Source: Tribonema minus (lineage: Eukaryota; Sar; Xanthophyceae; Tribonematales; Tribonemataceae). Taken from it: 64,000 nucleotides of DNA. The translations under genes were made by a program, and so were the position numbers. The stretch spans positions 1 through 64,000 of the forward strand of contig JAFCMP010000205.1 of the NCBI GenBank assembly GCA_017506865.1. The letters are read 5' to 3'. Under the pieces are notes generated by a model. The model saw only the letters and a program-made list of their open reading frames with translations, searched no databases and had not been told where the DNA came from. Shown here piece by piece: positions 3,127-64,000 of the stretch (positions within the stretch are counted from its first letter, which is position 1; every line of letters begins with the position of its first letter).

Positions 3127-4422
3127 CTGGCGTCGAGCAGGCGGGCCGGGGGGGCGGGTGCTCTCGACGGCAGCAGAAGAGGCGGGGGCGCATACGCCTA
3201 AGGAGCAGCAGCGCCTGGCACGGCACAAGGTGCTGCTCACTTGATGTAATCAAGCGCGGACGGGCGTGGCAATGGCACGCAGCCGCCAGACACTTCAGCA
3301 GCAGGTGTTCCAAAGCTGCGCAACACTAGCGCAGCTGTTGTGACTCCCACCAGCGATCTGGCTGTGTGCAGCACATAGCAATGTGCATGAGGGGCATGCT
3401 GCAGCAGGTTTTGTCCGACAGGTGCATCATGAGCAGCTTGGCTCATGATGCACCCTCAGCTGCGTCAGTTGCAGATGGAAGCGCGTAGCATGCTGGACGC
3501 TTTCAACAATTGTGAGCATGCCTTGGTAAATGGTGGCACGTCAGCTGTGGCTGTGGCGACGTTTAATAAATGTTCGAGGCTTTACTACCAACACCTACGC
3601 TATACTATGAAGTATAGTTGTCCAACATGTTTCGTCATCCACGTGTGACTCTGTCTTGTAGGCTCTTTTGACTGTTGACGCTTGATGCATGATCATGATG
3701 CTTACACATGAGGTTTCTTGTGCATGATCATACCTTCCCTGTTGATGCTTGATGCATCATGCTTACACATTAGATTTCTTGTGCATGCTGCACACCTTCC
3801 TGTTGGTTGCTTCATTTGAAACTCGAAAGGTTGGCGATATATATATGTATCACGCAAACATCATGAACTTGTGTGTTTCGCTTTGCAATGTACATGAATC
3901 AATGCAAATGGCCAACTCGGGTGCTGGTACACGGGTGTGTGTGCTCCCATCGCACATTGGGCAAGCATCAAATTGAATGATCGCACATTGCTGCCCGTTT
4001 GATTGTGGCTGCTGGATTATTGAGCATACATGTGGTCTTGTTGCGCCAGCATCCATCCACACAACCTTACCCTAAATCTTGACACAATCATCACCTGTGC
4101 TTTGGCGTGCAATGTCCCAAACAGCTGACGTGAACCACTTCATGCTACATGCATGTATACGAATGCCTCAGAGGGTCTCCAATGAGAGTGTAAAATGTGT
4201 GCACGCACACATTTGCAGAGCGAGCTCATATTCCTATCACATGCATCACATGCACACCCATGCATCTGATGGAAAAAGCCGAGCGCAGCATTGACAAAGC
4301 TGTCTGCAAGACAGTTCAGATCATGCATGATCATCTTAAGGGCAAAAACACAATCTTGCAAGAAAGATGAATGCATCAGAGATGGAATGCCAATGCAAGG
4401 AATATATTGCACATGCAAGCGT
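3127..4422. other. intergenic, AT-richer, no gene seen
   Basis: Only short frames on both strands. It contains the local duplication at 3673-3801 and many TGCATG/CATGCA words. It lies downstream of the transposase stop and may be transposon 3' sequence. Confidence 0.5.
3673..3801 (+). repeat. imperfect tandem duplication, about 65 bp per unit
   Basis: Unit one (3673-3740) and unit two (3741-3801) share GTTGA(C/T)GCTTGATGCAT, CATGCTTACACAT and TTTCTTGTGCATG in the same order. Unit two lacks an internal ATGATC. Confidence 0.7.
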
Positions 4423-7400
4423 TTAGGTTTTCTTCTTCTTACTGGGGCCAGCTGTGCTGCTCCGTGCCCGTTTCCCCAATACTTTCTGTGTACGCCTCTG
4501 CCTGATGAGTGGGTCATGGACATTGCCTGCTACTCTATCACGTGCTACTTGGCTAAGGTACTTCATCAGTTCCACCGCCTCCTGAGGTGGCAATGACTTA
4601 ACATCCGCAATGAGATTCTTGGCAAGTCCCCAGATTTGGGCATGCGCTATGTCAACGCTCAGCTGCTGAGGCTCATCCACCCCCATTGCATCCCAGTCAT
4701 CGCATGCTGCAGCCCCCACACCAGATGCGGCAGCTGCAAATTGCCTTGCAGCAAGCGCCACCACTTTTGCTAGTACTATCTCTTTACCTTCACCAGTGAG
4801 AATGCAGGCTGCCGCCTTCACACGGGAGGGGTGGAGCCACCTCGAGTGCGTGTTGCGGAAGATACACTCTGCAGCTGAGCGCTGCACGCGTGAGCATTGT
4901 GCGACAGTCGCCGTGGTCAGCACTGGGCTTGCCGCAGTCGCTGATGCTGCCGCCCGCCGCCGTCGCTGGTGCTGTCGGCGGCGCCGCTGTCGCCGGCGCT
5001 GCGTCCATGCTGTGCACAAGCGGCGCTGCTGCCGCTGCTGCCGCTGCCGCTGTCGCCGGCGCTGCCGCCGCTGCTGTCGCCGGCGCTGCGTCCAAGCTGC
5101 GCACAAGCGGCGCTGCTGCCGCTGCCGCTGTCGCCGGCGCTGCCGCCGCTGCTGCTGCCGCCGCTGTCGCCGGCGCTGCGTCCAAGCTGCGCACAAGCGG
5201 CGCTGCTGCCGCTGCTGCCGCTGCCGCTGTCGCCGGCGCTGCCGCCGCTGCTGCCGCCGCCGCTGTCGCCGGCACTGCGTACATGCTGCGCACAAGCGGC
5301 GCTGCCGCCGCTACTGCCAGCGCTGCTGTCGCCGGCGCCGCGTCTATGGTGCGCCCAATGGCAGGCGGCGCCGTAGCAGCTCGCACCACTGATGCCGCCA
5401 GCGCCGGCGTCGAAGTCCGTCGCGAGCACACAGTCAAGATGTTTGTGCTGGGGCTTGCTTTGCGTGCACTGCTGAGCACCAGCTTTGCGTCCGCCGCCAT
5501 GAGCCCTTGAAGCCTGCGCCATTCCATTGCGGTGACAGAGTCACCTACATGAATGCGCCGGCTCTCCTCCGCTGGCAGCAGAGCCCCTGTTGATTTGTTG
5601 CGAGTGAAGCTGAGCACTGTGACCGTGTTGTCCGTGAAGCCGAGCTCAACTCCAAGACTCTCTCCCACCATCATGCGCAGTGATACATCATGCGTAGTGT
5701 ACGCTTGAAGTTGAGTAGCACCGCCTGTGGCTGCCGCTGCGCTGGATGCTGCTGTTCTGCTGCCGCTGCTGCTGCTGCTGCGCTGCCGCTCCTCCGCGCC
5801 GCTGCTGCATTGCTCATCTTCCTCGCCGCCGCTGCTGCCATCGTCCGCGCCGCCGCTGCGCTGCCCCTCCTCCTCACCACTTCCGTTGCCCCCTTCACCA
5901 GGCAAAACTGTCACTCGCGGCAAGCACGCGAGGACATGGCGGCACAGCATGCCTGTCCGCATAGTCTCCAGGCAAGTGCACAGCGCAGCTCCTGAGGCAG
6001 TTATCACCACAGAATGGCACGAGCGGCCAAGAGTGGAAGCTACAGAAAACCATTCCTGTGCGCCAAACGCTGTGTAGTTGTCTGCGATGGCTTGCAGCAT
6101 GCTGATGCTTGCTCTGTGATGATCATTCTCGTCCAGTGCTGCATCGGGCTCAGCCTCCACGGCCCACTCTGCAAGCAAAGAGCACATGCCATCATGCTTA
6201 GTCAGTGTGAAGTGGAACACAGTAACCCGTTGTGCTTGCTCCACTTTCACCACTTGGTGCGCGATAGTCGTCACTTAGTGTCTATTGAGCAGCAAGGATG
6301 CTGCTGTTGCCTGCCAGTAACAATAGTTTTAAACGACAGTGTCAGAAGTACGGCCAATGTAAATGTGATGATATCAGAGATGACCACACATGTAACACAT
6401 GCCTAAACTAGTTGCTAAGCTGGTCGCTGACACCAACAAATTGTGTTGTGCAGCCTTTCGTTTGACCACACACAAAAAGCATAGCAATCTAATTGAGCAC
6501 TGATGTGGTGATGATCACTGGGGTCGATATATGCGCTCAAGCCGCTCTGGACACGTTGCTCCTTGTATGCAATGAGGTTGCGAGACTGCCACTATTGAAG
6601 TGAAAAACTTTCTAGCTAGCCTAATGACCCGAACCGTTGATGTTGAAGTTAGGAGTTCATGTTACCTACTTGAACAGAAACTCAATTGGCACTTTTTGAA
6701 GCAAAAACAAGCTGCTGAACATCAATTCTTGGTAATTGTACAACTCCTGTTTGCATGTACCTGAGGTGTCGCAGTGATCCTGCCTTGCCAGCTCAACATG
6801 ATAGCGCGCAGCAGCTCCAACTTCCTGAACGAGACACGTGAAGCAGTGCAGCGTCCCGTCCTGCTGAGCGACGTCCAGAAGCGGCTGATAGATGTTGCGA
6901 AGCGCTGCATCCACGCCTTTGAGCGCTACGCCATATGCCCGATTTGTGGCCTTGTTGTAGAGCTGGTCTTCGGCGCTGTATCTGCTGGTGATGCGGTCAA
7001 TGGTGGTCTTAAGGACGCAGAGGGTGCTGAGCTTGTGAAGCTCAGATTTGATCTTGGCGAAATATCCCTCACACCGCTGGGTAGAGTTGATCCCCAAGGT
7101 GAGGACGCCGATGCGGAAGTAGAATGCCCACCGCTGCCGTATGGGGTAGATGGTCGTGTTCAGGTACTTGACAACATCGGCATCGGCTTTGCCAGCACTC
7201 GCAAGTGCACGGTGAAGTGCGGTCCAGGCGCGCTCAAAGCAAACCTCCGTGGGTGCCCTGGATGCTCGATGCAGACACTTCTTGAAGACCTGCCAATGGC
7301 ATCGAGGTGTAAGTGAACTTCAAGTTGATGAACACTGCAGCATTGAAGCTGTATCAGCCAGTGCGGCAGATGCAAAGATAAGGCCTGCATGGGTGCATAC

Positions 7401-10247
7401 AATACTATTTTGTACATTATCGTGGCACAGCAGCAAAGGACAATCATGATGGTGGCGCCACACGCACATTCATTTTGTGACATGTTATTTGACCGATGAT
7501 GTTGCGCTGGCAATATCGCAACATGCGTGTTACTTGAATGGCCATTGCCATATTGGGTTCTGTGAATTGCTGCTGCAGCGGTCTGCTTGGTGTGGACCGA
7601 ACATGCATGAGTGAATGAGCCTCCATAGCATTGCAATGTGTCCATGATGGCTTTCTGCTTTGCAGCACGCTCCAACCCAATGCTGTTGATGGTACTACCG
7701 CTGGCAGCAATTTAGAGCCGTGGATGTCAGGTTCATTCACGCTATATCATTTAAAACATTTGAGTATGATATTTTACATACAGATAGCATGCGCGCAATT
7801 TGCAAAAAATTTCTCTACGCCACGTTCACCAAGGTCAAATACCTCAATGCGCGCATCACCATTCCGGATTGGCAACTTCAGAGTAAACATTTGCCATACA
7901 TTTGAGTATGTTAATTTTACATACAGATAGCATGAGCGTAGTTTTCAACGTGTTTCCCTACGTCACGTTCACCAAGGTGAAACACTTCAATGCGTGCATC
8001 ACTTCCGGATCGGCAACTTCACCTTCAATTTGAACATTTGCCATACGTCACACGGTTTTCAGCAGTATGTAGAAGAATAACCCCTCCCACGCAGTCAAAG
8101 ACGGGGAAAATGAATATTATGAGCCCATGTTGCAATGCCTACGTGAACTTAAAATCATGCCCCAGCTATGCAGTAATGCAACATCAAGTCAAGCGGGCAA
8201 GCAAAATTTGCACTTGCCTGCCATGTTGAATCGCCCAGCTTCCCCTTGAGCTTCTCCTTCACATTCTTGACGAAGTGCCACTCGCAGATGAGGTGCACTG
8301 TTCCTGGCCAGGAAAGCCCCATGGCAGCTTCCGCAGCAAAATCCCTGCAATGGAGGTGAAAAGCAGATGTTGCATGCGCATGTGAGACGGCTGTGCGCAA
8401 GGCGGGCTACTGGGCACACTGACAATGATATCATTGACATCCCCACCATAATTCGCACACCTGTCTGTGAAGCACACACGAGGGTGCTTGCCGTCCACCA
8501 TTTTCACGTAGTGGTCAAAGAACCACATGAATGCCTCTGTGTCCTCCTTGTCCAAGACTGCCTGGCAGAAGAGTCGTGTCCTGAACACCAAGAGCGCCGC
8601 AGTGAGTCGCAGTGAGAAAATGAATGCATCGCTCAGCAACATGCAGTCAATTGTTAAGAACAGTGAAAAAGCAGTGTAGTCCATCAGCATTTGGCAGCTA
8701 TACAGTATCGCTGACTGCCATGTCAATCACTGCAGTTTGGTGACGGCATGCATTCAGCATTATTACATACTGCTCACTTGCTCTCGCCGTTCACTCCAAC
8801 GATCACGCTCAGTGGCAGGCCATACTTGGTGGTGCCAAAAGTGCAGTCCTGCACAGGCGGCACAAAAGCATAGAAGTTGAGCGGAACATGATGTGTTGTC
8901 ATTTCGTCATACAGCGATAATTTCCTATGAGCCGTTGATGACCACCTCCATCATGGTGTGCGAATGTAGCTGAGCCAAATCATTTGGGCAAATATGAGTT
9001 TCAGTATGCACACTGTGACCGCATTGGTGCTGGGTTTTCCAGAGGCAGCTGCTGATCAAGTAGTAAGCGATGACAATGACACGGTGACACCAGTCAATTG
9101 CAGCGCACTGGCAATTACATACAGTACATCGTCAAAATATTCAGACCATGGGGTGGCAAGAGGGACAAAGTATACTGCCTTAAGACTAGGTACGTCATGA
9201 TGCTGCATGAGTTGAGTGCAGCAGCCAATGAAGCATCACCGGTGCAGTAACAGCAGCATACCTGTTGGACTACATCTAGGCCAAAGTCCTTAGCGGCTCG
9301 ACCTGCTCCTGAGTAGCCCAAAAAGCGAGCCTGAACGTGCAGTCCTCCTGAAGGTCGTATGATGCGTATCCTCCGTTGGCCTTCACCTCGCAGAGCGCTG
9401 CGATGAACTCTTTGCTATCACCCTTGGTGAATGCAATGCGTGCTCTGACGTCAGCTTCTGTGTTGTTCAGCAGGGCGAGAGCTGATTGATCAAAAACCGC
9501 TGTGAAGTCACCGCCGAAATGATGAAGTCACGACAGTCTGCTGAAGCACCTTGCCACTCATAGTTGGTGCGGCACTCCAGTTCCTGACGTTCTGGATGAT
9601 GTCATCTGTGAGGTCTTCCCTGGTGATGATGCGACCTGTATTACCAGGTGGCGCCACCGGTTCAGTCATGGCACTCAGCGCGTGATTGTGGCCCTCGTGG
9701 AATGATGTGAGTTGGGAAATTGCCCATGGTGGCTCGTGGCTGGCATTCTGGCATGAGTTCTCATCTGGTGCTATGTGCTGCTCCTTTGACACTGACTGTT
9801 GTCTGAGCTTTACAAGCCACTTGCACTCGCACTTGATGCATGTGCTTGCGACTGCACGACGCTGCGCTTCTGGGTGCGTCTCTGAGCGCTTGCGAGGTGG
9901 TTTGTCAGCACAATGGCAGATAATCCAGAACAGAGGAGGGCTGCGTTGTTTGCTCTTGCAGTATACCTTGAAGCCAGCACTGGCAGCATACGTCTGCACC
10001 GCATCGATGGCATGCTGCCGGGTTGCAAACAGCCTGCTGTTGAGGTCAGCACAGACCTGAAAATGGCGAGGCAGAAAACAGCAAAGCTATCAGGCAGGGA
10101 TGCTGTACAGATCAAGGCAAGTATTGCATTACAGACAGGTATATACACTCCTTAACAGAGGAACCAGACACGTACCTCAGCGTCTGTCACGTTGTGGACC
10201 GCAGCAGTCTGTAACGAAGGCGCTGACAGCTCCTGGAGCTGTTCCAT
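4423..10247 (-). CDS. Mutator-like transposase with FAR1 DNA-binding and SWIM domains
   Basis: Multi-exon gene; exons read: 10176-10247 (MEQLQELS...), about 9530-10059 (FAR1-type finger, with YAASAGFKVYCKSKQR and the histidines of FHEGHNHAL), 9262-about 9520, 8778-8848 (first catalytic Asp, DCTFGTTKYGLPLSVIVGVN), 8461-8580 (KEDTEAFMWFF, ending FTD), 8218-8344 (RDFAAEAAM, then HLICEWHFVKNV), 6761-7289 (catalytic Glu in STQRCEGYFAKIK) and 6273 to the end (SWIM finger, CTC...LCRHV). Splice phases agree between most exons, and one donor is GC (CAG|GCAAGT at 8217). The frame changes inside the 9.3-9.5 kb stretch, near 9515 and near 9295. It changes again in the alanine-coding minisatellite, after which a basic tail ends ...PSKKKKT at 4423. 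All DDE residues are present, but these breaks suggest ageing or sequence error. Confidence 0.85.
4965..5345 (-). repeat. GC-rich minisatellite inside the transposase tail
   Basis: Four to five diverged units of roughly 70-100 bases built from CTGCCGCTGCTGTCGCCGGCGCTG and GCGCACAAGCGGCGCTGCTG. On the minus strand they encode APLVRSLDAAPATAAAAA-like units. All three frames stay open through the array, so unit gain or loss can change the reading frame without making a stop. Confidence 0.8.
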
Positions 10248-11633: not shown

Positions 11634-12984
11634 AGTGTGATAACGAATTAGAAGTATAAAACAGCGCGTTGTTTACATTAGTTTAAGTTGTTCCTGGGTA
11701 CGTTAGTACTCAGGTCTCCCTGAGATTAAATCACCAGACGCTCACCTTTTCACTTTTTACCTACTGCACGCGCGAGTGAACTGGCAGCTGGCATCAGGTC
11801 GGTCTGCCCTAGAAATCTTATGATGCGACCGGCATCAAGCGCCGTGCTGTAGCCATGGCGCTGTCCAAGGAGGTGCACAAGAACCCTACATGGCCTGTGA
11901 GAACAAAGTGCAAACTACATCACGCTGTCGGTCGGGACGCTTACCAGCTGCAGCAACGCTGATGATCGATTTGCGCTCTGATGTTGTCACTCCTGACTGA
12001 TGCAGCGCTGCAGCCGCTATTGTGGAGAGACTCTGGCGCTGCTCATGGGTCTCCAAGAAAATTTGAGATAGCCGGAAAAAAAACGCCCTCTTTCGCAGGA
12101 ACAGGGGGTTGCGTCGTATTGCTGCACGGGCGACTGCATCCTTCTGGCAATTCATGCAGCAGCGGTGAAACCTCCCTGCTGCACCATCACGCGTCTCATC
12201 TCAGTGTGTGTCAGGCGCAGTCTGTGCAAGTGGGGGCTGCGCCTAGCGAGAGAGACAGAGGAGGGGCCCCCCCGGATCGGGGGATGTTGGCCACCTTTGT
12301 GCAAGGGCTGATCGCTGGTTGGCCAACGTTTGCGCTGCAATCATGCATTACTTTGAGTGAATGTTTGTGGACGACAGCAGGTGCTGCTTTTTGTACATCG
12401 CCTTTGGGGATATCCCCCAGAACTCCCCAGAACTTGTTCCTTTAGCGCGACACATGGCTGGACGGTCAGGTTTTAGATGTACAGCGCGCGGGGGGGGTGT
12501 AATCGGCAGGTGCTGCTCACCACGCATTTTCCGGTGTCCATGCTCATAGACGAATGAAATGGCTGTTTGAATATACATTAGCAAACAACACAATGGTAAA
12601 CTGATTAATTCCGAGGTAATTTCACCAGTACACGAATCATGTTCCCTGCTGCACCATGACCGTCAGGAGTCTCCTCTGAGACATCTACGAGGTGCAGACC
12701 TGGTTGTCAGGCGCAGTCTGTGAGACTATGTCAGCGTGCGACCCCCCCCCCCCCCCGTCCTGGAGGGGGGGGAAGCGGGGGGCAAACCTAGTCGGCAGGC
12801 CCCCATACAGCACATACGACTTCACCGTGGCTAACCTTTTGAGCGGTCAAGCACACATTCATTTGAAATCTGTGTTTGTGGACAAGAGCAGGTGCTGCTG
12901 TTGTACGTATGGACTTGTATTTATAAAGGCCCAAGGGAGGCCGGGTTGCCTATGCAATCGAAAAGCTTGCGTCAACGCAGCAGC
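11634..12984. other. 3' flank of the RT element with internal duplications
   Basis: No credible gene. Two diverged blocks, about 12160-12400 and 12640-12910, share the order CACCAT(C/G)AC, TCAGGCGCAGTCTGTG, TTTGTGGAC(G/A)A and AGGTGCTGCT...TTGTAC. A third AGGTGCTGCT occurs near 12507 and a fourth near 16342. This looks like repeated 3' or 5' untranslated sequence of the retroelement. Confidence 0.55.
12742..12772. repeat. C-run/G-run hairpin (left of RT element)
   Basis: About 15 C, then GTCCTGGA, then about 9 G. It is nearly self-complementary and matches 16247-16274, beyond the other end of the RT ORF. Confidence 0.7.
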
Positions 12985-15900
12985 CTAGTCTGCGCTGTGC
13001 CCTAGGAGTTTGGATACCGGCGCCGCAACACAGCCCAGCATTCGCGCTCCACGTGTGTATGCCATGACGCGCTCCGCCAACTCCCGCGCCAGCGATATGC
13101 TCAGCTCAATGTGGATCTGACGCTTAGCTAACCCGGCCTTGCGTAACACATCTGCCTTCCCCCCCCCTGAGCACAGTGCTGAGTGCATTGCCAACTCCTT
13201 AACAAAAAGGCTTGTCTGCTTGCCCAGCCGTCCGTACGACTCCTGCACGAATGGCACAAAAGCCCAAGATGACGTCAAGGTGCCGGTGTGGTGCTTGACC
13301 TTCGCGTCCTCCCCCACCCCAGCAGCATAGCCGTCCGTGTTCGAGGCATTTGTTTTGCCTGTCAGGTACGAGCTCGCTGTGGGTGCGCGCACACTTGTGT
13401 CTAGCACTATTCCCTTGTTACGGTATGCACTGCTAAAGTGCAGACACCCTGGGTCAATGACTGTGTCCGCCCGATACCCCGGTACCTTGAAGACGCTAGC
13501 GTCCTCATTGCGGACAATAGAGACATGGTGCTGTCTCAAGATGCGCTGTAGGCACCGCTTTTGGGCAGTGTGTGTCGCGTTGTGCCCCCGTATGTGCTGG
13601 CTGGGGCAGCTGATCGCATGCGTGGAGGTGGGGCTCACGTCACTGCACCGCCATGGGCACACCTCGCCCTGTATGCCCCACCCGTCTATAAAGATCGCAA
13701 CCATAATCATCGTGGCTGCTGCCATACTGGACATGGGCGCCGCACCCGGGCGGTCATTGGCAGCGGGTGGCACGCTCATCCACGCCATTGCCCCGGACGC
13801 ACGCTGGCTGCGCAGCTGCGCCAGGACCCGCGCGCTAGCCTGTTGGCGGCGGCGGCTGGTGTCACGCAAGTCACCAATAAGTGTAGCCTGCGTCGGCTTG
13901 CCCACGGCACCAGCCGAGGCAGCCTCTAGGTCCTCCACCAGGCAGTCCTCGTATTGACGTCGAAGAACATTTGAAAGGCCGGCTTGTAGTCCGTGCGTGA
14001 AGTGACCGCGCCGGCGGCGGGGCACTACCTTTCTGCAGATCTCGTCAGCATAGGCCTCCCAGTCGTCGTCGTCGTCCTCCTGCCCGCCGCTGCAGCTGCT
14101 TTCTTCCGCGCTAGTTTGTGTTTTAGCGGGCGTGGAAGAGGCAGCCGCGGCAGCGGCTTGAGGGCCAGGTACGGTCGCCGCCGCAGCGGCCGCCTCGGCG
14201 CCAGGCACAATGCCGTGGGTGTGTGGGGCTGGCTCAGTGGTCCCCGTCTCCGTGACGGCAGTTGCGGCGTAGATCGCTTGCACCGCAGTGGGGAGCGTCG
14301 ACGCTGCGGCCGTTGTATCCGCTGCCCACCGTAGCAACGATGCTGGGAGCTGCTCGGCCACAGCTGTGCGTGATTTTTCGCCGCCATCAGCTGTCAGCGC
14401 TCGCGTAGAGCGTCGCACGGCCTCGATGATTGGCGGCAGTCCCTGGTCCTCGCGTATTGCGCATGAGTGCTGCGCGAACCAGGTGACTGCGCCGTGTTCG
14501 TCAGTGCCGAGCCTCAGGGCCCCTGCTGCCACAGTGGCATGAATTATTGCAGGCCGCAGTGTTGTGCATGCCTGGGCCGTGTATGCGGCTGGTGCCAGTA
14601 GCCCCAAAAGCGGCATGCCCAGACCGCCTCGTCGCTCCGGCAACCGTGACGCCCGCAGTGGCACTGCGATGTCCGTGAGTTCTGGCGGGCCCAAGCGCGG
14701 CAATACCAGCACGCTGCCACTGCTGGCTACCTCATTGTCACCAGCAGTGCAGGCGGCCAGCAGGTGTGACTTCATGACTGCCGCGGTAGCGCAGCCGTGC
14801 AGGTGCAGCATGCGTTCAAGCGTCCATGCACAGAACCCGTCAAATGCGTGCAGCCATGTCTCACTCAAAGCCGTGTCAACGACCCGAGCTAAGAAGCCCA
14901 TGCGCTTTGTCAGTGACCTGCGCAGAATGAATTGTGCTGCCTGTAGGTGATGCCGCGCCATCCCAGCTAGCTGCCACGACAATCGCCATGTCCCTGCGTC
15001 AACAAGATGCTTGCTCATGGCAGCATGCACATAGGCTGGGTGCCCTACCGGTACCCCGACCGACGTAAAGCCCTGACTGGATTCTGGCATGGTGGCGTCC
15101 ACAAACGGTATGTCAAGGGCGCGCAGGCGTGCTCTGGCCGCTTCATCAAACACTGTGCCGCGCATGGCAATGGCCAGCGACTTGTCTGGTCGAACGCGTA
15201 GGCCCCCTGCCGCAAGCCGACGGATCACCTCTGCCACCCCAGCGGCCGCTGCATCGTCGAAGTAGGCAGCTTGCAGCACGTTGAGGTCATCCAGGAAAGC
15301 GCAGTGCGGGGCTGGCGGTTCCGCTGTGCTGTGGCCGTAGGCCGGCATACTGCCGGGCGTCGCACTCACTCCATCAGGGTAGAAGAGTAGGAATGCCGCT
15401 GCCACTGCAAAGTACAGCGGCCCTAGAGGGTCCCCTTGCTGGCACCCTAGGTGGGAGCAGATAATGCGAGCTTCACCGTTCACCTCCACTCGCATCTCTG
15501 GGGCAGTGTCACCACAGTATACGGACTCAAAGTGCGGGAGCAGCTCCGGACAGAAGAGCATAAGTCCCCGCACAATGGCGGCGCGATCCACACTGTTAAA
15601 TGCGTTCTCACAGTCCAGCTGGATTGTGGTGCCATACAGCTCGTGCCACACGCGCGCGCGCGCTGCCACATGCTCGACGCCAGACCGGTATCCTACGCCA
15701 AACTGCGACATGGAGGCCAGCAGCCCCGATATTTTGCCCTTGACACCCCGTGCCGCTGTGGACCCGAGGAGTCTGCGCCAGACACTGGAGCAGGCGATCG
15801 GACGCCGCTTCTGTCCTATGCCTGAGAGGGCCGCGGCGCGGAGAAGCCGTTGCGATTGCTCCGGCAGCAGTTCGGGCTCAACAAGCAGCGTCGTGAACAC

Positions 15901-16149
15901 CTTGGCCAGGTGATGGGCGAATGCCGGTTCCATCACATCCGATTCTGAATCACCAGCTAGTCCTGGCGAGGCACTGCCCACGGGGCGGGTGGCTGCTTTC
16001 ACTGGTGCACCAGGCCCAGCGGCCATCAAGAGGTGTTCATAGCGTAGGCCGTCCAGCCCTCCTGCCTTCCCCGCCCCTGCTGCGGACAAGGTCGACAGGC
16101 CGTGGCTGTGCGCGAAGCGGGATGCCCCCCCGGGAAGGGGGGGGGGCAT
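12985..16149 (-). CDS. non-LTR retrotransposon protein: RT plus restriction-like endonuclease
   Basis: One open frame; the first ATG is at 16149. RT motifs in order: GGLDGLRYEHLL, RPIACSSVWRRLLGS, IQLDCENAFNSVDR (first Asp), CQQGDPLGPLYFAVA and AFLDDLNVL, the FxDD form of the catalytic box. After the thumb come LPERRGGLGMP, acidic low-complexity DNA, a CPWRC...H...C zinc knuckle and a C-terminal domain with GYRADTVIDPG and GIVLDTSVRAP. The latter fits the PD-(D/E)xK-like endonuclease of R2/NeSL-type elements. The ORF ends LGHSAD. The RT domain starts within 40 residues of the ATG, so the usual N-terminal fingers are missing: either a 5'-truncated copy or an N-terminal part encoded elsewhere. 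No internal stops, so it looks fairly young. Confidence 0.85.
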   Translation of the reverse strand: MPPPLPGGASRFAHSHGLSTLSAAGAGKAGGLDGLRYEHLLMAAGPGAPVKAATRPVGSASPGLAGDSESDVMEPAFAHHLAKVFTTLLVEPELLPEQSQRLLRAAALSGIGQKRRPIACSSVWRRLLGSTAARGVKGKISGLLASMSQFGVGYRSGVEHVAARARVWHELYGTTIQLDCENAFNSVDRAAIVRGLMLFCPELLPHFESVYCGDTAPEMRVEVNGEARIICSHLGCQQGDPLGPLYFAVAAAFLLFYPDGVSATPGSMPAYGHSTAEPPAPHCAFLDDLNVLQAAYFDDAAAAGVAEVIRRLAAGGLRVRPDKSLAIAMRGTVFDEAARARLRALDIPFVDATMPESSQGFTSVGVPVGHPAYVHAAMSKHLVDAGTWRLSWQLAGMARHHLQAAQFILRRSLTKRMGFLARVVDTALSETWLHAFDGFCAWTLERMLHLHGCATAAVMKSHLLAACTAGDNEVASSGSVLVLPRLGPPELTDIAVPLRASRLPERRGGLGMPLLGLLAPAAYTAQACTTLRPAIIHATVAAGALRLGTDEHGAVTWFAQHSCAIREDQGLPPIIEAVRRSTRALTADGGEKSRTAVAEQLPASLLRWAADTTAAASTLPTAVQAIYAATAVTETGTTEPAPHTHGIVPGAEAAAAAATVPGPQAAAAAASSTPAKTQTSAEESSCSGGQEDDDDDWEAYADEICRKVVPRRRRGHFTHGLQAGLSNVLRRQYEDCLVEDLEAASAGAVGKPTQATLIGDLRDTSRRRQQASARVLAQLRSQRASGAMAWMSVPPAANDRPGAAPMSSMAAATMIMVAIFIDGWGIQGEVCPWRCSDVSPTSTHAISCPSQHIRGHNATHTAQKRCLQRILRQHHVSIVRNEDASVFKVPGYRADTVIDPGCLHFSSAYRNKGIVLDTSVRAPTASSYLTGKTNASNTDGYAAGVGEDAKVKHHTGTLTSSWAFVPFVQESYGRLGKQTSLFVKELAMHSALCSGGGKADVLRKAGLAKRQIHIELSISLARELAERVMAYTRGARMLGCVAAPVSKLLGHSAD

Positions 16150-58212: not shown

Positions 58213-59167
58213 TGCGGCGTGCAAGCTTTGCATGCTACACCCAAGAGTGAAAACAAGGCGACACACCTACAACATGGCATTTCCACAGCCACAAGTGGAA
58301 TGTAATAAAAGTACAACACAACAGCACGTAGATGTCGTCTCAATGCAACGAGACGCGGTCCAGCACCCATTTGGGTCCACAAGCCATGCAAGACATGCGG
58401 TATTGGAGTGTGATGGCATTGCTGTTGCCACTGCCATGACATCAACCTATGCAATGGGAACGCTGTACACCGTGCTTAGCGCCCTGCTGCTCGGGCGAGC
58501 GGCAGGAGGAGGCAGCGAAGGAGGAGCCGCTGGCGGAGCGGCGGCGCGGAAGGCGAGGATGCACAGGGGACACTGAGGGCACAGCAGCACCGCACGCTCA
58601 ACCTGTCGGCCTGGCTACAGCCGAGGACTAGAGAGCGGATTTTCGCTCCACCGCGGGCCTGACCGAACAAGGCCAGACACGCAGCGTGGGTCGCCGGTGT
58701 AAGCAAGTAAGCCTCGCATTGATATTGCTAAAGCTACCTACGCACACAGCGACATCGGCCGAAGCACAAGAAGGGCAAACTAAAAAAAAACAAACAAAAA
58801 AAAACAAAACATCAGACGATATCGCCGTCGACGGATCGGGAAGGGGGAACCTAGGGCACACTGGATCGCAGGGCAGTAGATAGCAGTTCACCAGATTAAG
58901 GTTTGAACGCTTGCTGACCAGCTTGATTTGCAGCCGCACAAGGGACCTCGCCTGGCAGAGACTGACTGCATTCAGCACACGCACAGACACGACAGGACCA
59001 CGACACTGCAGCGGCAAGGACACGAATTGCACAGCATTGCATTCAGCCCAGCTGCCTTGTGTTGGTCAGAGGCAGAGAGCTTGAGCACACCGACTCGTTC
59101 CACCACCGCTCGTTTCACGACGGCGGGAGAAGCACCTCAACAGATACACCAGAGCAGGACGGGATCT
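58213..59167. other. 5' flank of the OTU-containing ORF
   Basis: No gene recognised. GC-rich from 58490 to 58720. An A-rich stretch at 58781-58809 (A-runs broken by C) could be an old poly(A) tail. The region may be the 5' untranslated part of the retroelement that starts near 59.3 kb. Confidence 0.35.
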
Positions 59168-59264
59168 TGAACTGAAAGTGGTATAGTTGTGCAGGGGAGT
59201 ATTCGCGGTTGGCAGCCGCGCATTCGAGACCGAACCTGGGCTTTTTTTTTTTTTTTTTTTTTTT
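59168..59264 (+). other. tRNA-like sequence with T23 tail (SINE-like head?)
   Basis: AGTGGTATAGTTG resembles a tRNA A-box/D-arm (Gly/Asp/His type). CGCGG-TTGGCAG-CCGCG forms an anticodon-like stem with a 7-base loop (GGC in the anticodon position). ATTCGAGAC approximates a B-box, but its stem does not pair. T23 follows at 59242-59264 and would stop Pol III. It is not a functional tRNA. A tRNA-derived SINE or pseudogene is possible. Confidence 0.35.
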
Positions 59265-59293
59265 CTCGCGCCTCAAAGTCGCCTTTCAAAGCT

Positions 59294-62200
59294 ATGGCTC
59301 TCCACTGGCTTACCAGCCCTGCCTCACGTGGGGAGGGGTCACCTCTGAAACGCAAACGGGAACAGCGCAACCACGGGCTGAATACTGGCTTGTGGTGGTG
59401 GCAGGTCAAAGCTGCACGCCAATCTGACACACGCCGCAGACGCCGCCATGGTGTTGGCCGTTGGGTACGCCTAGTGATACCGCCGCCGCCACCGATCCCG
59501 GGCCCGCCGCCAATCCCGGGCCCGCCGCCGATCCCGGGCCCGCCGCCGATCCCGGGCCCGCCGCCGATACCGGGCCCCCCGCCGATACCGGGCCCGCCGC
59601 CGATACCGGGCCCACCGCCGATACCGGGCCCGCCGCCGATACCGGACCCGCCACCGATACCCGGCCCGCCACCACCTCAGCTGATGGCCCAGAGCTCTAG
59701 ACCGCGGCCGATGCCAGAGGTGCCAGTGTGCAGTCAGGTTGCAGAGCTGTGCAGAAGCATGCGCAGACTACACTTGTCGTCAGCCGACTCGGACGAGCCT
59801 CAGGGCAGTGGCAGCCACGCGCACGTCAAGAAGCGCCGCCGCCATCTGTCTAGCCCAGGTGCCGCTAATCACTGTGACAGGGGATGCTCACAGACGAAGC
59901 GCCCGCGGCATCAGCCTGCCAGTGACTCGGAGTCTCAAGCGGCGAGTTTACGGGAGGCACTGCCGCCAGCAGCGATGATTGTACTGAGCTTGGTGGTACT
60001 ACCGCCACCAGCGGCAAATAAACGCCGTCGGGCGACACTGCCGCCGGATTCACCAGTAGCGACAACGCCAATGCCAAAACGACGTTCGCGGCGGAAAACG
60101 CCTTTAGTGACGGCTGCCACTGCCGCACCAGCGGCGGGGCCCGCACCGGCCAACCCGGTGGTTGCACAGCCACGGACGACTGTCACAGCCGCCGCTGCAT
60201 GCGGTCGCAAGGTTACCTCCGACTTAACGGCGGCGGCAACGCCACGTGCGGCAGACATGGTGCCAAAACCGCCGGCAGGCGCTGCCGCATCAGATGGCCA
60301 ACGCGGGGCAGCTGCATCCCGGCGGGGTCGGCGTCGCGGCGCCAGCGCCGGGCCGCCCCTGGGACGCCTCGGAAGCATTGGCAGCATCAACCGCCCAGAG
60401 TCGCCGTCTGGCAAACTGAGTGCGCTGGCAAAGGCGGTCACCACGACCGTGCCCGTACCGATGGAAGTTGGCGAACCTACCAGTGGGCCAGCGGGTCACC
60501 AGAGACGGATCACGTCGCGGCCTTCGCAGCCAGCTAGCAGCGGCGCCTCTCCCCAGTGGCATCCCGGTCCTCAGCCGATGGAGGTCACCGCAGCGGAAAC
60601 CCCATGTACTGCAGACATGGTGACAACAGCACCAGCGGCCGCAGCGGCTGCTGCACCGGGCGGCGAACGTGGGGCGGCTGCACCCCGGCGGGGTCGGCGC
60701 CGCGCCAGCGCCCAAAGCACTGGCAGCGTCACCCGTCCAGAGCCACAGTCTGGCGGTGCGCTGGCAAAGCCGGTCACCGTGACCATGCCTGTACCGATGG
60801 AAGTTGGCGAACCTGGGCCGGCGGGTCACCAGAGACGAATCACGTCCCGGTCTTTGCAGCCAGCTGGCAGCGGCGCCTCTCTGTCAGGCGGCAGCGTCAC
60901 CTCTGACGGTAACAGTCGCAACGGGCACCCAATATCCGGCATCACCGCTATGACAGTTTTGGCGCCCGCCAAGACACCCGCTGCCAACCGGAAGGTCAAT
61001 ATCCCGGGGCTGGACTGCCGCATGTGCGACAAGTTCATAGTGCGAGCAAATCCTCGGGCCCCGGGAAAGAATTGCCCAGCGGCACACGCATGTGCACACC
61101 AGCGCACGCGCCACACAGGGAAAGGGAAGCAATTTGCAGAACTGCATGTTCAGCTTTTCCTAGACCACCGACCAATATACGGCGGCCTAGAGCAGGTCTG
61201 CGACGGGTGCGGCAACCTCTTCATCAGACGCACAGCAGCAAGCGCCACGACACCATCTGGTGATCTAGGGGCCCTGGACCAGTGCGACGTGTGGCGCTGC
61301 GCCGACTGCCTCGCAGGCCCGGTCGCCGCGACAGCATGCACACTGTCAGGCTGTGACCGTGCATCAGGCCATGATCACATTGCTGACATACACACCCGAC
61401 CAACGACATGCGCGGCGGCAGCGGGTGGTGCAGCTGTTGGTGGGGGGAATAGCCTGAAGCCAACAGCCGCGCTGCTCGCCGCCGCTAGCAAATGTGGTCC
61501 CATACGCAAATTCCTCGGATGCGAGCACCTGGGGGTAGACCCCAGGCAAGCCCATGCATCTACGTTGGACGGTGTGGCAGATGCGCCGCTGCCGAGACTG
61601 ACCCGGAGCAGCACAATGGGTGTGCTGCCTGGCGAAAGTCGTGCTAGCGATAGCGGCGCAACGATGTCAAGCAACGATCGTGTGCCCAGCACACCTGGCA
61701 GTGCCGCAGCTGCTGTCGCAGCGGGCGCTCAGTCTAGCGAATGCCCCAGGGACCCGACGGGATCACACTGGCAAGGCCTGCTGGGGGCGGCTGGCGCACT
61801 CGCGCGCAGGGTACGTGCACTGGCCCTTGCCCCCAATCGGGCACGCGTCACGGTGCTTTGCGCTTGGCCGACGGGTACCAAGCTTGGACCCTGCCGCACG
61901 TCACGCCGACTGCATATGCGGCCGGCGCCCAGCGACGCGCCAGCAACACAGACCCTGCTGGGCCGGACTTCCTGCGCACCGCTGGTGAGTCAGATGCATG
62001 ACCTGACGGTCACGTTCAGCTTGCTCTCCCTCCGAGAAGAAGGTAATGACCTGGCAACGGTGTTTGACCAACTCTCCCTTAGGGAACCGGTCGTTGCCAG
62101 GTCGCCTCGCCAGCCAGCCGGGAAACGTGGTGAGTCAGACGTAACGCAGGCTGGTGATAACAGCACCCACGCAACAATGACCGAGACAGCACCTGTCACG

Positions 62201-64000
62201 GCTATGGTTGCCAGTGGAAAGCGCAGTCGACGCAGAGGTAAACACAGACGGCGGACGCAGGAGCGACAGGCCCAGTGCGACAATTCTCGTGCACCCCTGG
62301 CACCAGCCACCACACCGCCGAGGGGCGGTGCCTCTGCCCCCTCAGCACCAATATCCGGGCCGGCGAAGGTCACCACCGTGACGGTGGCGACCCGGATACC
62401 CTCAACCGTGTGCCATACAGTCACCGTGGAGGAGCAGCAAGACGCGCTGGCAAAAGCCACCAACTATGGTTTTTCCACTTGGCACACGGGCCTGCAGGCA
62501 CTCCACAAACAGGCGCTTGGGGAAAACACAGCGACGCTAGCACGTGGTGGGGAGCTTCGCCCCGTGAGCAACGTGGGCAACGGCAACTGCCTGATTCATA
62601 CAGCTCTACACGGCATAGACAGCGTCGCAGTTGAGCACGGACTGCCGGCCCCAGCACTGGTGATTGCCATGCGAGAGGCACTGCTGGACGGGATGGTGGC
62701 ATACGTCACGCAGGGGGCGGGCAAACAAGGGGCCAGCATGTCATCGATGCGTCAACTGACCGCGCATGCAGCAGCCCAACCTGCGTGTACACGTGAACAA
62801 TTCGACACGTACGGGACACGCGCTCGCTGCCTCGCAATCGAGTACGGCACAAATGAAACGGACAGCGCGGACAGCGGGCACACGCTCCTGCTGCAACGCC
62901 TACAGGAAGAGGGCGTGTGGGGACGGCCCCTCGGTTTGTCTGTGTGGGCCATTGTTGCAGCGGTCTACGCGGTCTCGGTGACGGTGTGGCAGGCCGAGCC
63001 TCAGGCCACTGGCAGCACGCAAAAATCAACAGGGCTGGTGCTGGCACAACTGATGGGGCTGCCAGCGGTATTCGCACCGGCAACTCCAGCTCAGCCTGAC
63101 TGCCATCTGGATGTGCTGTGGACGCCGCCTGGGCTATATACAAATGTGGGACACTTTGAACTGCTTGTCGCCCCTGCGGCAGCTCCGCCCTTGCCAACCA
63201 CTATGACAGCGTCGGCGACCACTCAAGCTAACAGCACCCACATCACGGCTCCGAGTCGGACACAGCCCCGTACTGCGCTGCAGTTGCCACAGCAGCCTGA
63301 GCCACTGAGGTGTCCTTTATGCACACTGGCATTTTGGCAGCTTGGTCAGAAAGAGGACAGCAAACAGCGAGGCAAACTGTCAGCTGCGAGCCGCATGGCA
63401 CCGGTAGTGGCCCACTTCAACGGTGGTAGCTGCACGAGGTCGATGCTGAACCCTGAGGCGAGCACATCACACTGTCAGCAAAATCTGGCGGCAGCATACG
63501 CCAAGGGCATCCGGCAGCAGGTTGATCACGACCCATCCGGTGACCGTGCCCCTTCAGGCAGCAGTACCTGCAACACTGGGGCACACCATGCCAAGCGTGT
63601 GCAGGAGATGAGCACCATGTATGGTTGCACGGCAGAAGACTTCCTACGGGCGGTAAGGAAGCTGAGTGCATGCACAGGTGCCTGCGGTCTGGTCCATATG
63701 TCAGCCAGCGCGGGGCAGAGGCAATGCGCGCTGACCTCGCCATGCCACACGTGTCGACGGAATGGAAGCGCCCCCACGCGCGCACGCCCGGCAGTACCCC
63801 CGGGCCAGTCCGAGGGCGGGGGTGCGGGTAGCGACGGCGCGGCCGCGGCGGCGGGGGCTGCCGCAGCGACACCTCCAAAGCCACCGGCGGTGCCGGCTAG
63901 TGGCGCTGCCAACTCAAAGTCCAGCAAGAAACGCCCGGCGGCCACGGCAACCGGCGCGCAACGCCGGCGCCGAACGGCAGCTGCTGCAGCACCGCCTGGC
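59294..64000 (+). CDS. giant ORF with OTU-like protease and zinc clusters (runs off window), probable retroelement polyprotein
   Basis: One uninterrupted frame from ATG 59294 to the window edge, at least 1569 codons; the frame is open from 59171. Order: basic N-terminus; ten IPGPPP repeats (residues ~67-126); basic/Pro/Ala-rich linker with an internal duplication (~320-530); CRMCDKF...C...H cluster (~576); ZZ-like cluster CDGCGNLF...CDVWRCADC...C (~636-690); an OTU-like domain with VSNVGNGNCLIHTAL (Cys 1099) and a matching NVGHFELLV (His 1287); a further zinc pattern CPLCTLAFW...HF...C (~1340-1375); and an Ala-rich basic tail. OTU or Ulp1 protease domains occur beside RT in some algal non-LTR elements. 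That parallel and the 13.0-16.1 kb element suggest an N-terminal polyprotein half, with RT expected beyond the edge. A host deubiquitinase is the alternative. Confidence 0.75.
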   Translation, partial: MALHWLTSPASRGEGSPLKRKREQRNHGLNTGLWWWQVKAARQSDTRRRRRHGVGRWVRLVIPPPPPIPGPPPIPGPPPIPGPPPIPGPPPIPGPPPIPGPPPIPGPPPIPGPPPIPDPPPIPGPPPPQLMAQSSRPRPMPEVPVCSQVAELCRSMRRLHLSSADSDEPQGSGSHAHVKKRRRHLSSPGAANHCDRGCSQTKRPRHQPASDSESQAASLREALPPAAMIVLSLVVLPPPAANKRRRATLPPDSPVATTPMPKRRSRRKTPLVTAATAAPAAGPAPANPVVAQPRTTVTAAAACGRKVTSDLTAAATPRAADMVPKPPAGAAASDGQRGAAASRRGRRRGASAGPPLGRLGSIGSINRPESPSGKLSALAKAVTTTVPVPMEVGEPTSGPAGHQRRITSRPSQPASSGASPQWHPGPQPMEVTAAETPCTADMVTTAPAAAAAAAPGGERGAAAPRRGRRRASAQSTGSVTRPEPQSGGALAKPVTVTMPVPMEVGEPGPAGHQRRITSRSLQPAGSGASLSGGSVTSDGNSRNGHPISGITAMTVLAPAKTPAANRKVNIPGLDCRMCDKFIVRANPRAPGKNCPAAHACAHQRTRHTGKGKQFAELHVQLFLDHRPIYGGLEQVCDGCGNLFIRRTAASATTPSGDLGALDQCDVWRCADCLAGPVAATACTLSGCDRASGHDHIADIHTRPTTCAAAAGGAAVGGGNSLKPTAALLAAASKCGPIRKFLGCEHLGVDPRQAHASTLDGVADAPLPRLTRSSTMGVLPGESRASDSGATMSSNDRVPSTPGSAAAAVAAGAQSSECPRDPTGSHWQGLLGAAGALARRVRALALAPNRARVTVLCAWPTGTKLGPCRTSRRLHMRPAPSDAPATQTLLGRTSCAPLVSQMHDLTVTFSLLSLREEGNDLATVFDQLSLREPVVARSPRQPAGKRGESDVTQAGDNSTHATMTETAPVTAMVASGKRSRRRGKHRRRTQERQAQCDNSRAPLAPATTPPRGGASAPSAPISGPAKVTTVTVATRIPSTVCHTVTVEEQQDALAKATNYGFSTWHTGLQALHKQALGENTATLARGGELRPVSNVGNGNCLIHTALHGIDSVAVEHGLPAPALVIAMREALLDGMVAYVTQGAGKQGASMSSMRQLTAHAAAQPACTREQFDTYGTRARCLAIEYGTNETDSADSGHTLLLQRLQEEGVWGRPLGLSVWAIVAAVYAVSVTVWQAEPQATGSTQKSTGLVLAQLMGLPAVFAPATPAQPDCHLDVLWTPPGLYTNVGHFELLVAPAAAPPLPTTMTASATTQANSTHITAPSRTQPRTALQLPQQPEPLRCPLCTLAFWQLGQKEDSKQRGKLSAASRMAPVVAHFNGGSCTRSMLNPEASTSHCQQNLAAAYAKGIRQQVDHDPSGDRAPSGSSTCNTGAHHAKRVQEMSTMYGCTAEDFLRAVRKLSACTGACGLVHMSASAGQRQCALTSPCHTCRRNGSAPTRARPAVPPGQSEGGGAGSDGAAAAAGAAAATPPKPPAVPASGAANSKSSKKRPAATATGAQRRRRTAAAAAPPG
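59494..59673 (+). repeat. ten 18-bp units encoding IPGPPP
   Basis: Units of AT(C/A)CCGGGCCCGCCGCC(G/A) in perfect 18-base register, encoding Ile-Pro-Gly-Pro-Pro-Pro. The first four carry ATC and the later ones ATA, so expansion happened in two blocks. Confidence 0.9.
60251..60890 (+). repeat. internal tandem duplication within the OTU ORF
   Basis: Two in-frame units, about 60251-60560 and 60611-60890, share GCAGACATGGTG, the GRRR basic block, ALAK(A/P)VT, PVPMEVGEP, GPAGHQRRITSR and QPA(S/G)SGAS, at an offset of about 337-360 bases. Confidence 0.85.

Follow-up and report, generated by a model that had tools for sequence, protein, structure and literature searches.

The 3' part of the window, by which we mean the whole stretch of 64,000 nucleotides analysed here (positions 1 to 64,000 of contig JAFCMP010000205.1 of Tribonema minus), is occupied by what is probably a recently amplified non-LTR retrotransposon (LINE) with a single open reading frame (ORF), most likely of the kind that uses a restriction-like endonuclease, and whose polyprotein appears to include an OTU-like cysteine protease. 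The first-pass annotation had proposed a retroelement polyprotein rather than a host deubiquitinase, and this proposal is borne out by a reverse transcriptase (RT) in the same frame and by about 1,000 copies of the element in the genome; an early stop without an RT and a single copy, which had been named as observations that would count against it, are not what was found. The whole element measures about 9.76 kb, from about 58,469 to about 68,224 of the contig, the 5' end being uncertain by a few bases. A second copy in the window matches the 3'-most third of this one at 99.9% identity over 3,197 bases. The features of the window are the following:

58469..64000, + strand: non-LTR retrotransposon, window part (5' end common to other copies; 3' end at one and the same position in all 20 copies fetched)
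58469..59293, + strand: 5' untranslated leader (the region 5' of the ATG common to the 13 other copies read, including a T tract of variable length)
59294..64000, + strand: the portion inside the window of a single polyprotein ORF (which ends at 67,930 of the contig and has 2,878 codons counted from its ATG)
59495..59674, + strand: proline-rich IPGPPP repeat array
61016..61129, + strand: Cys/His cluster 1, a possible N-terminal DNA-binding zinc finger (by eye)
61199..61411, + strand: Cys/His cluster 2, the 'ZZ-like' finger of the first-pass annotation
62564..63187, + strand: probable OTU-like cysteine-protease domain (Cys box 62,579-62,608, Trp-Gly box near 62,915, His box 63,149-63,166)
63311..63760, + strand: Cys/His-rich stretch 3' of the OTU-like domain
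12902..16098, - strand: second copy of the element, 5'-truncated, at a GTAC of a dispersed repeat of which unoccupied sites were read

The ORF had been described as a giant stop-free frame cut by the window edge, and it is both: the frame has no stop between 59,171 and the end of the window (1,610 codons) and goes on to 67,930 of the contig (C205, 72,734 bases), for a stop-to-stop length of 2,919 codons. At the ORF's own base composition an open run this long would be expected with a probability of about 4e-34, and the longest frame obtained in 200 shuffles of the ORF, read in three frames, had 422 codons. The T23 tract noticed upstream lies in the leader at 59,242-59,264 (+). Among the leaders of 13 other copies that were read, the T run takes lengths of 19 to 30, and the stop-free stretch 5' of the ATG at 59,294 varies with it, from 35 to 44 codons; since both vary between copies, the T tract is read as untranslated leader, and the ATG at 59,294 is likely to be the start codon. 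The tRNA-like sequence thought to sit directly upstream was not recovered by ARAGORN, which at its relaxed ps80 setting only gave three long-intron tRNA candidates, and none of the three Rfam matches at E≤10 is a tRNA. Within the ORF, the IPGPPP repeats that had been pointed out amount to nine units. Of the 'ZZ-like finger', the Cys/His-rich stretch is real, but the ZZ assignment is backed by neither Pfam nor NCBIfam at E values up to 10, and Cys/His cluster 1 and the Cys/His-rich stretch that follows the OTU-like domain similarly have no match in these two collections. The window copy is frameshifted within its endonuclease-like part and ends 72 codons early; 11 of 13 other copies have the intact length of 2,950 codons from the ATG (obtained by subtraction), the other two having 2,902 and 2,865. 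Copy L090, which was read whole, is an intact single ORF of 2,950 codons that carries both the RT and the C-terminal part.

Extension of the contig, with a search for RT and endonuclease domains in the same frame, had been suggested as a check. The RT was found in frame: RVT_1 matches a stretch of an intact copy with an E of 3.5e-8 and 33.8 bits (cut-off 29.6), a first cut of the region having given 1.2e-6 and 28.8 bits, slightly below that cut-off, and the conserved RT blocks LDCENAFNSVDR, GCQQGDPLGPLYFA and FLDDLN are present. A comparison of the RT plus the C-terminal half with PDB sequences gave no RT match. On the 3' side of the RT, a CX3CX8HX3C knuckle is seen by eye in intact copies, followed by GYRAD...VLDTSV...ESYGR, a motif that we take to resemble the restriction-like endonuclease of R2-type LINEs and in which the usual PD reads AD. 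For the endonuclease, then, the motif is there to be read, but no Pfam family matches this part above its cut-off, the best line being ClpB_D2-small at E 0.15; an AlphaFold model of the same part has a pLDDT of 34. Four pieces upstream of the RT gave no Pfam match to an apurinic endonuclease at E≤1, and no integrase was matched in the pieces scanned with Pfam. It might be argued that the frame is simply a single-copy host gene for an OTU-domain deubiquitinase, as the motif alone would permit; however, this explanation has a negligible probability, since the number of copies and the presence of an RT in the same frame rule it out, and the copies moreover share ends at which the flanking sequence breaks.

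The junctions of the copies are informative about the mode of insertion. The 3' end falls at an identical position, with no poly(A) tail, in all 20 fetched copies, while the 5' starts differ; the sequence after the 3' end is ACGTAC in 18 of them and ACGTGC in two, and genome-wide AC follows the exact 3' end in 839 of 1,000 cases. Fifteen copies with both flanks were available, that is, the 20 fetched 5' stretches minus seven (L069, L070, L079 and L080, which had no usable junction, and L075, L076 and L077, which had no fetched 3' partner) plus the two window copies. Target duplications of 8-12 nt, all starting with GTAC, were seen in six of the 15, a length of 8 nt being reached by 1 of 210 mismatched flank pairs taken as a control. 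Duplications of 4-5 nt in three further copies are at chance level (4-6 nt in 135 of the 210 mismatched pairs), and the remaining six copies have none. In five of the six copies with a long duplication, the duplication is followed by 2-8 additional bases before the aligned 5' end is reached, so the exact position of that end is uncertain by a few bases. The dispersed repeat at 12,702-12,901 (-) of the window, which has 41 matches in the genome, was entered at the same point by the copy at 12,902 and by a copy on contig C507, with different 5' truncations. Eight unoccupied copies of the repeat, fetched out of 40 scored among the 41 matches, read GTAC (seven) or GCAC (one) at the entry point, which indicates that GTAC was present in that target before insertion. 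The fixed 3' end, the differing 5' ends, the duplications and the unoccupied sites fit target-primed insertion at GTAC.

These observations also bear on the class of the element. An RT, a fixed 3' end with differing 5' ends, duplications of variable length and no terminal repeats, the features by which a LINE is recognised, were all found, the self-comparison at E 1e-10 having shown no repeats other than those of the IPGPPP array. Another class of retroelement, be it an LTR retrotransposon or a Penelope-like or DIRS-like element, could be suspected in a genome in which Gypsy-like RTs are abundant and for an endonuclease known by its motif only; yet the missing terminal repeats in that self-comparison, the lack of an integrase match in the scanned pieces, the fixed 3' end, the differing 5' ends and the unequal length of the duplications make it very improbable, and the element is treated here as a LINE. 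As a separate observation on the insertion sites, TTAGGG/CCCTAA-like repeats adjoin the 5' flank of L078 and the 3' flank of L048, far from contig ends.

The copy number of the element, whose determination had also been suggested as a check, is high. A 25-base piece at the 3' end has 1,000 exact matches in the genome, with none for reversed-pattern controls, and a 28-base piece of the same end has 1,260 matches at one mismatch or fewer. The 5' end of the window copy has 30 matches at two mismatches or fewer, a count that may miss the 5' ends of other subfamilies. In a search with the RT (399 residues), all 104 scored copies were 100% identical in protein, and 36 of these lie in open frames of at least 2,900 codons; the scored copies are 104 of 1,438 first-look candidates for the RT and 147 of 395 for the OTU-like stretch, and the unscored ones may include more diverged copies. 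A second subfamily is represented by L090, at 97.3% DNA identity. Between the window copy and L090, which belong to different subfamilies, pN/pS is 0.31 over 2,821 codons, and the polyprotein as a whole has thus been under purifying selection. The value differs along the protein: between L083 and L090 it is 0.15 for the RT and 0.16 for the knuckle plus the endonuclease-like part, and the window copy and L090 give 0.66 for the first Cys/His region and 0.77 for the stretch that follows the OTU-like part. The OTU-like part itself gives 0.36 for the latter pair, on 8 differences, which are too few to judge this part alone. A recent amplification of the element is probable as part of the overall explanation. 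Relatives were sought in viral contigs, by the RT, the OTU-like and the endonuclease parts, and in other genome contigs, by the RT and by the RT plus C-terminal part, and none were found. Of the 151 RVT_1 matches of the genome, the six that were examined as possible relatives look by eye like Gypsy-type LTR elements.

Other features of the window and of the genome are recorded here in their own right. On the - strand of the window, frames at 4,400-10,090 show a SWIM-like zinc finger together with a FAR1/MULE-like part; judged by eye, they may belong to a DNA transposon of the Mutator type. Elsewhere in the genome, L084-L089 appear by eye to be LTR retrotransposons of a Gypsy-like kind, each with a single frame of between 3,104 and 3,455 codons. 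Short rbcL-like fragments with one in-frame stop each occur in two nuclear contigs (L041 and L042), as expected of transferred chloroplast DNA.

The most unusual part of the polyprotein is the OTU-like stretch. The OTU-type Cys/His pair that had been noticed is present, as a Cys box (NGNCLIHTAL) and a His box (GHFELL), and a VWG (Trp-Gly) box lies in between; the three boxes follow one another in the order known from OTU proteases, although the Asp that usually precedes GNC is an Asn in the element. The Trp-Gly and His boxes were matched by eye, the automatic OTU alignment having misplaced the Trp-Gly box. The stretch has no internal stop in any of the 147 scored copies, all of them at least 98% identical, and the three boxes are unchanged in the second subfamily. 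With a profile made of four OTU domains of the same genome, hhalign placed the region above 100 of 100 shuffles and gave it as the sole well-scoring place among the tiles of the polyprotein; the match covers 12 columns of the Cys box only, with a probability of 6%. In HMMER the top three tiles of the polyprotein all fall in this region, and scores as high were reached by 4 of 1,000 shuffles of the whole region, by 22 of 1,000 in which the Cys box was kept and by 18 of 1,000 shuffles of the rest alone, the program having reported 849 of the 1,000 whole shuffles, 849 of the 1,000 tail shuffles and 92 of the 134 tiles. A profile search for OTU, proposed earlier, gave no match to the Pfam OTU family (PF02338) up to E 10, and the element is not among the 13 Pfam OTU matches of the genome. 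The only Pfam line for the region is DUF6861, at E 0.034 and 14 bits against a cut-off of 28, and neither NCBIfam nor PDB sequences were matched; a single-sequence AlphaFold model had a pLDDT of 40 and was unusable. The deubiquitinase attributed to the polyprotein is a putative one: its assignment is based on the ordered OTU boxes and on weak profile scores, and family, PDB or NCBIfam matches are absent. Our assessment, which gives the ordered boxes more weight than the scores, is that the region probably has an OTU fold and that the stretch is a probable OTU cysteine protease.

Two other readings of this stretch, both of which leave the retrotransposon as described, have to be weighed. In the first, the stretch would be some other domain in which GNCL and GHF motifs occur by chance, with no protease function. 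The lack of a family or PDB match, the sub-threshold DUF6861 line in their place, the failed structure prediction, the hhalign alignment of the Cys box alone and the shuffles that score as high once the Cys box is left out all speak in its favour, whereas the canonical order of the three boxes (two of them read by eye), the position of the region as the best-scoring place of the polyprotein, and the persistence of the boxes in the second subfamily and of the open stretch in every scored copy speak against it, and we regard it as unlikely, though to be taken seriously. In the second, the domain would be a processing protease, acting on the polyprotein of the element itself rather than on ubiquitin. 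Such a role could suit a protein of 2,950 residues in which the domain lies between the Cys/His clusters and the RT. However, OTU enzymes are known for ubiquitin cleavage, the default activity of the family, and no such processing is generally assumed for the single-ORF proteins of R2-type elements, so that self-processing seems distinctly unlikely. Relatives of the OTU-like part were looked for among the genome's 13 Pfam OTU matches, and the three whose frames were listed were rejected, L004 and L006 appearing Helitron-like and L008 showing no RT. As an observation apart, L004 and L006 are large frames with OTU domains, Helitron-like by eye, and, unlike the LINE, they are recognised by the Pfam OTU model.

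With the stretch read as an OTU-like protease, a working mechanism can be outlined. The N-terminal Cys/His clusters would bind DNA, and the C-terminal endonuclease would nick one strand at GTAC, leaving a primer that ends in GTAC and that could pair with the 3' end of the RNA (...ACGT or ACGTAC). Target-primed reverse transcription by the RT would follow, with the RNA as template, and the target duplication would result from a second cut at a distance of up to 12 bp. In the least certain step, the OTU-like domain, which sits where some NeSL and Utopia LINEs have a Ulp1-type protease, may act as a cysteine protease that deubiquitinates the protein of the element itself, or else chromatin and repair factors at the target. 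It is tentatively proposed, as a possibility short of our preferred expectation, that an active OTU deubiquitinase was acquired by a new lineage of LINEs of the endonuclease type; the retrotransposon would then free its own protein, or the chromatin at which it arrives, of ubiquitin, and would do so while inserting at the palindrome GTAC.

Among known systems, the Dualen/RandI LINEs are hosted by Chlamydomonas. These are likewise non-LTR elements, with a restriction-like endonuclease such as is likely here (PMC3636483 and PMC4640811), and they differ in having an additional apurinic endonuclease, an enzyme to which the present element has no Pfam match. Closer parallels are found in the R2-group LINEs (CRE, NeSL, R2, R4 and Hero). 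According to PMC3636483 these carry on one ORF an RT, then an endonuclease of the PD-(D/E)XK-like type, and a CCHC motif, similarly to what is seen here with a putative endonuclease motif read by eye, and target duplications are reported for all known CRE and R4 elements; their targets are rRNA, spliced-leader or telomere sequences, in contrast to the dispersed GTAC sites of the element. The 2,950-codon ORF and the OTU-like domain set the element further apart from this group. Ulp1-type proteases have been described in nematode NeSL elements and in Utopia-1_TSP (PMC4640811), LINEs of the endonuclease type in which, as is probable here, a cysteine protease of the ubiquitin/SUMO kind precedes the RT on its N-terminal side; a protease in such a LINE is therefore not new in principle, but theirs is Ulp1-like whereas the boxes here are OTU-like, and Utopia targets U2 snRNA genes and not GTAC. 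OTU domains have also been described in mobile elements of another kind, the Ginger1 and Helitron DNA transposons, for which a role in transposition or repair has been suggested (PMC2836005). They share an OTU-type domain with the element and differ in being DNA transposons, and the Helitron-like OTU proteins L004 and L006 of the same genome, identified by eye, are not its relatives. The ubiquitin-removal role suggested above would be in keeping with the default activity of the OTU family, and a similar proposal has been made for OTU-bearing transposons (PMC2836005). No description of an endonuclease-type LINE with an OTU domain was found in searches of the CC-licensed literature of PMC, and an OTU-like protease domain in such a LINE seems not to have been reported there.

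Proteases of the ubiquitin/SUMO type recur in mobile elements, Ulp1 in NeSL and Utopia (PMC4640811) and OTU in Ginger1 and Helitron (PMC2836005). A young, high-copy LINE with intact and nearly identical copies would allow the role of such a protease to be tested, and the preference for GTAC, together with the unoccupied sites that were read, offers a simple substrate for studying how these endonucleases choose a short target. If the proposal is true, the capture of an OTU domain and the insertion at GTAC may have aided the recent burst of this element to about 1,000 copies in a genome of 158 Mb.
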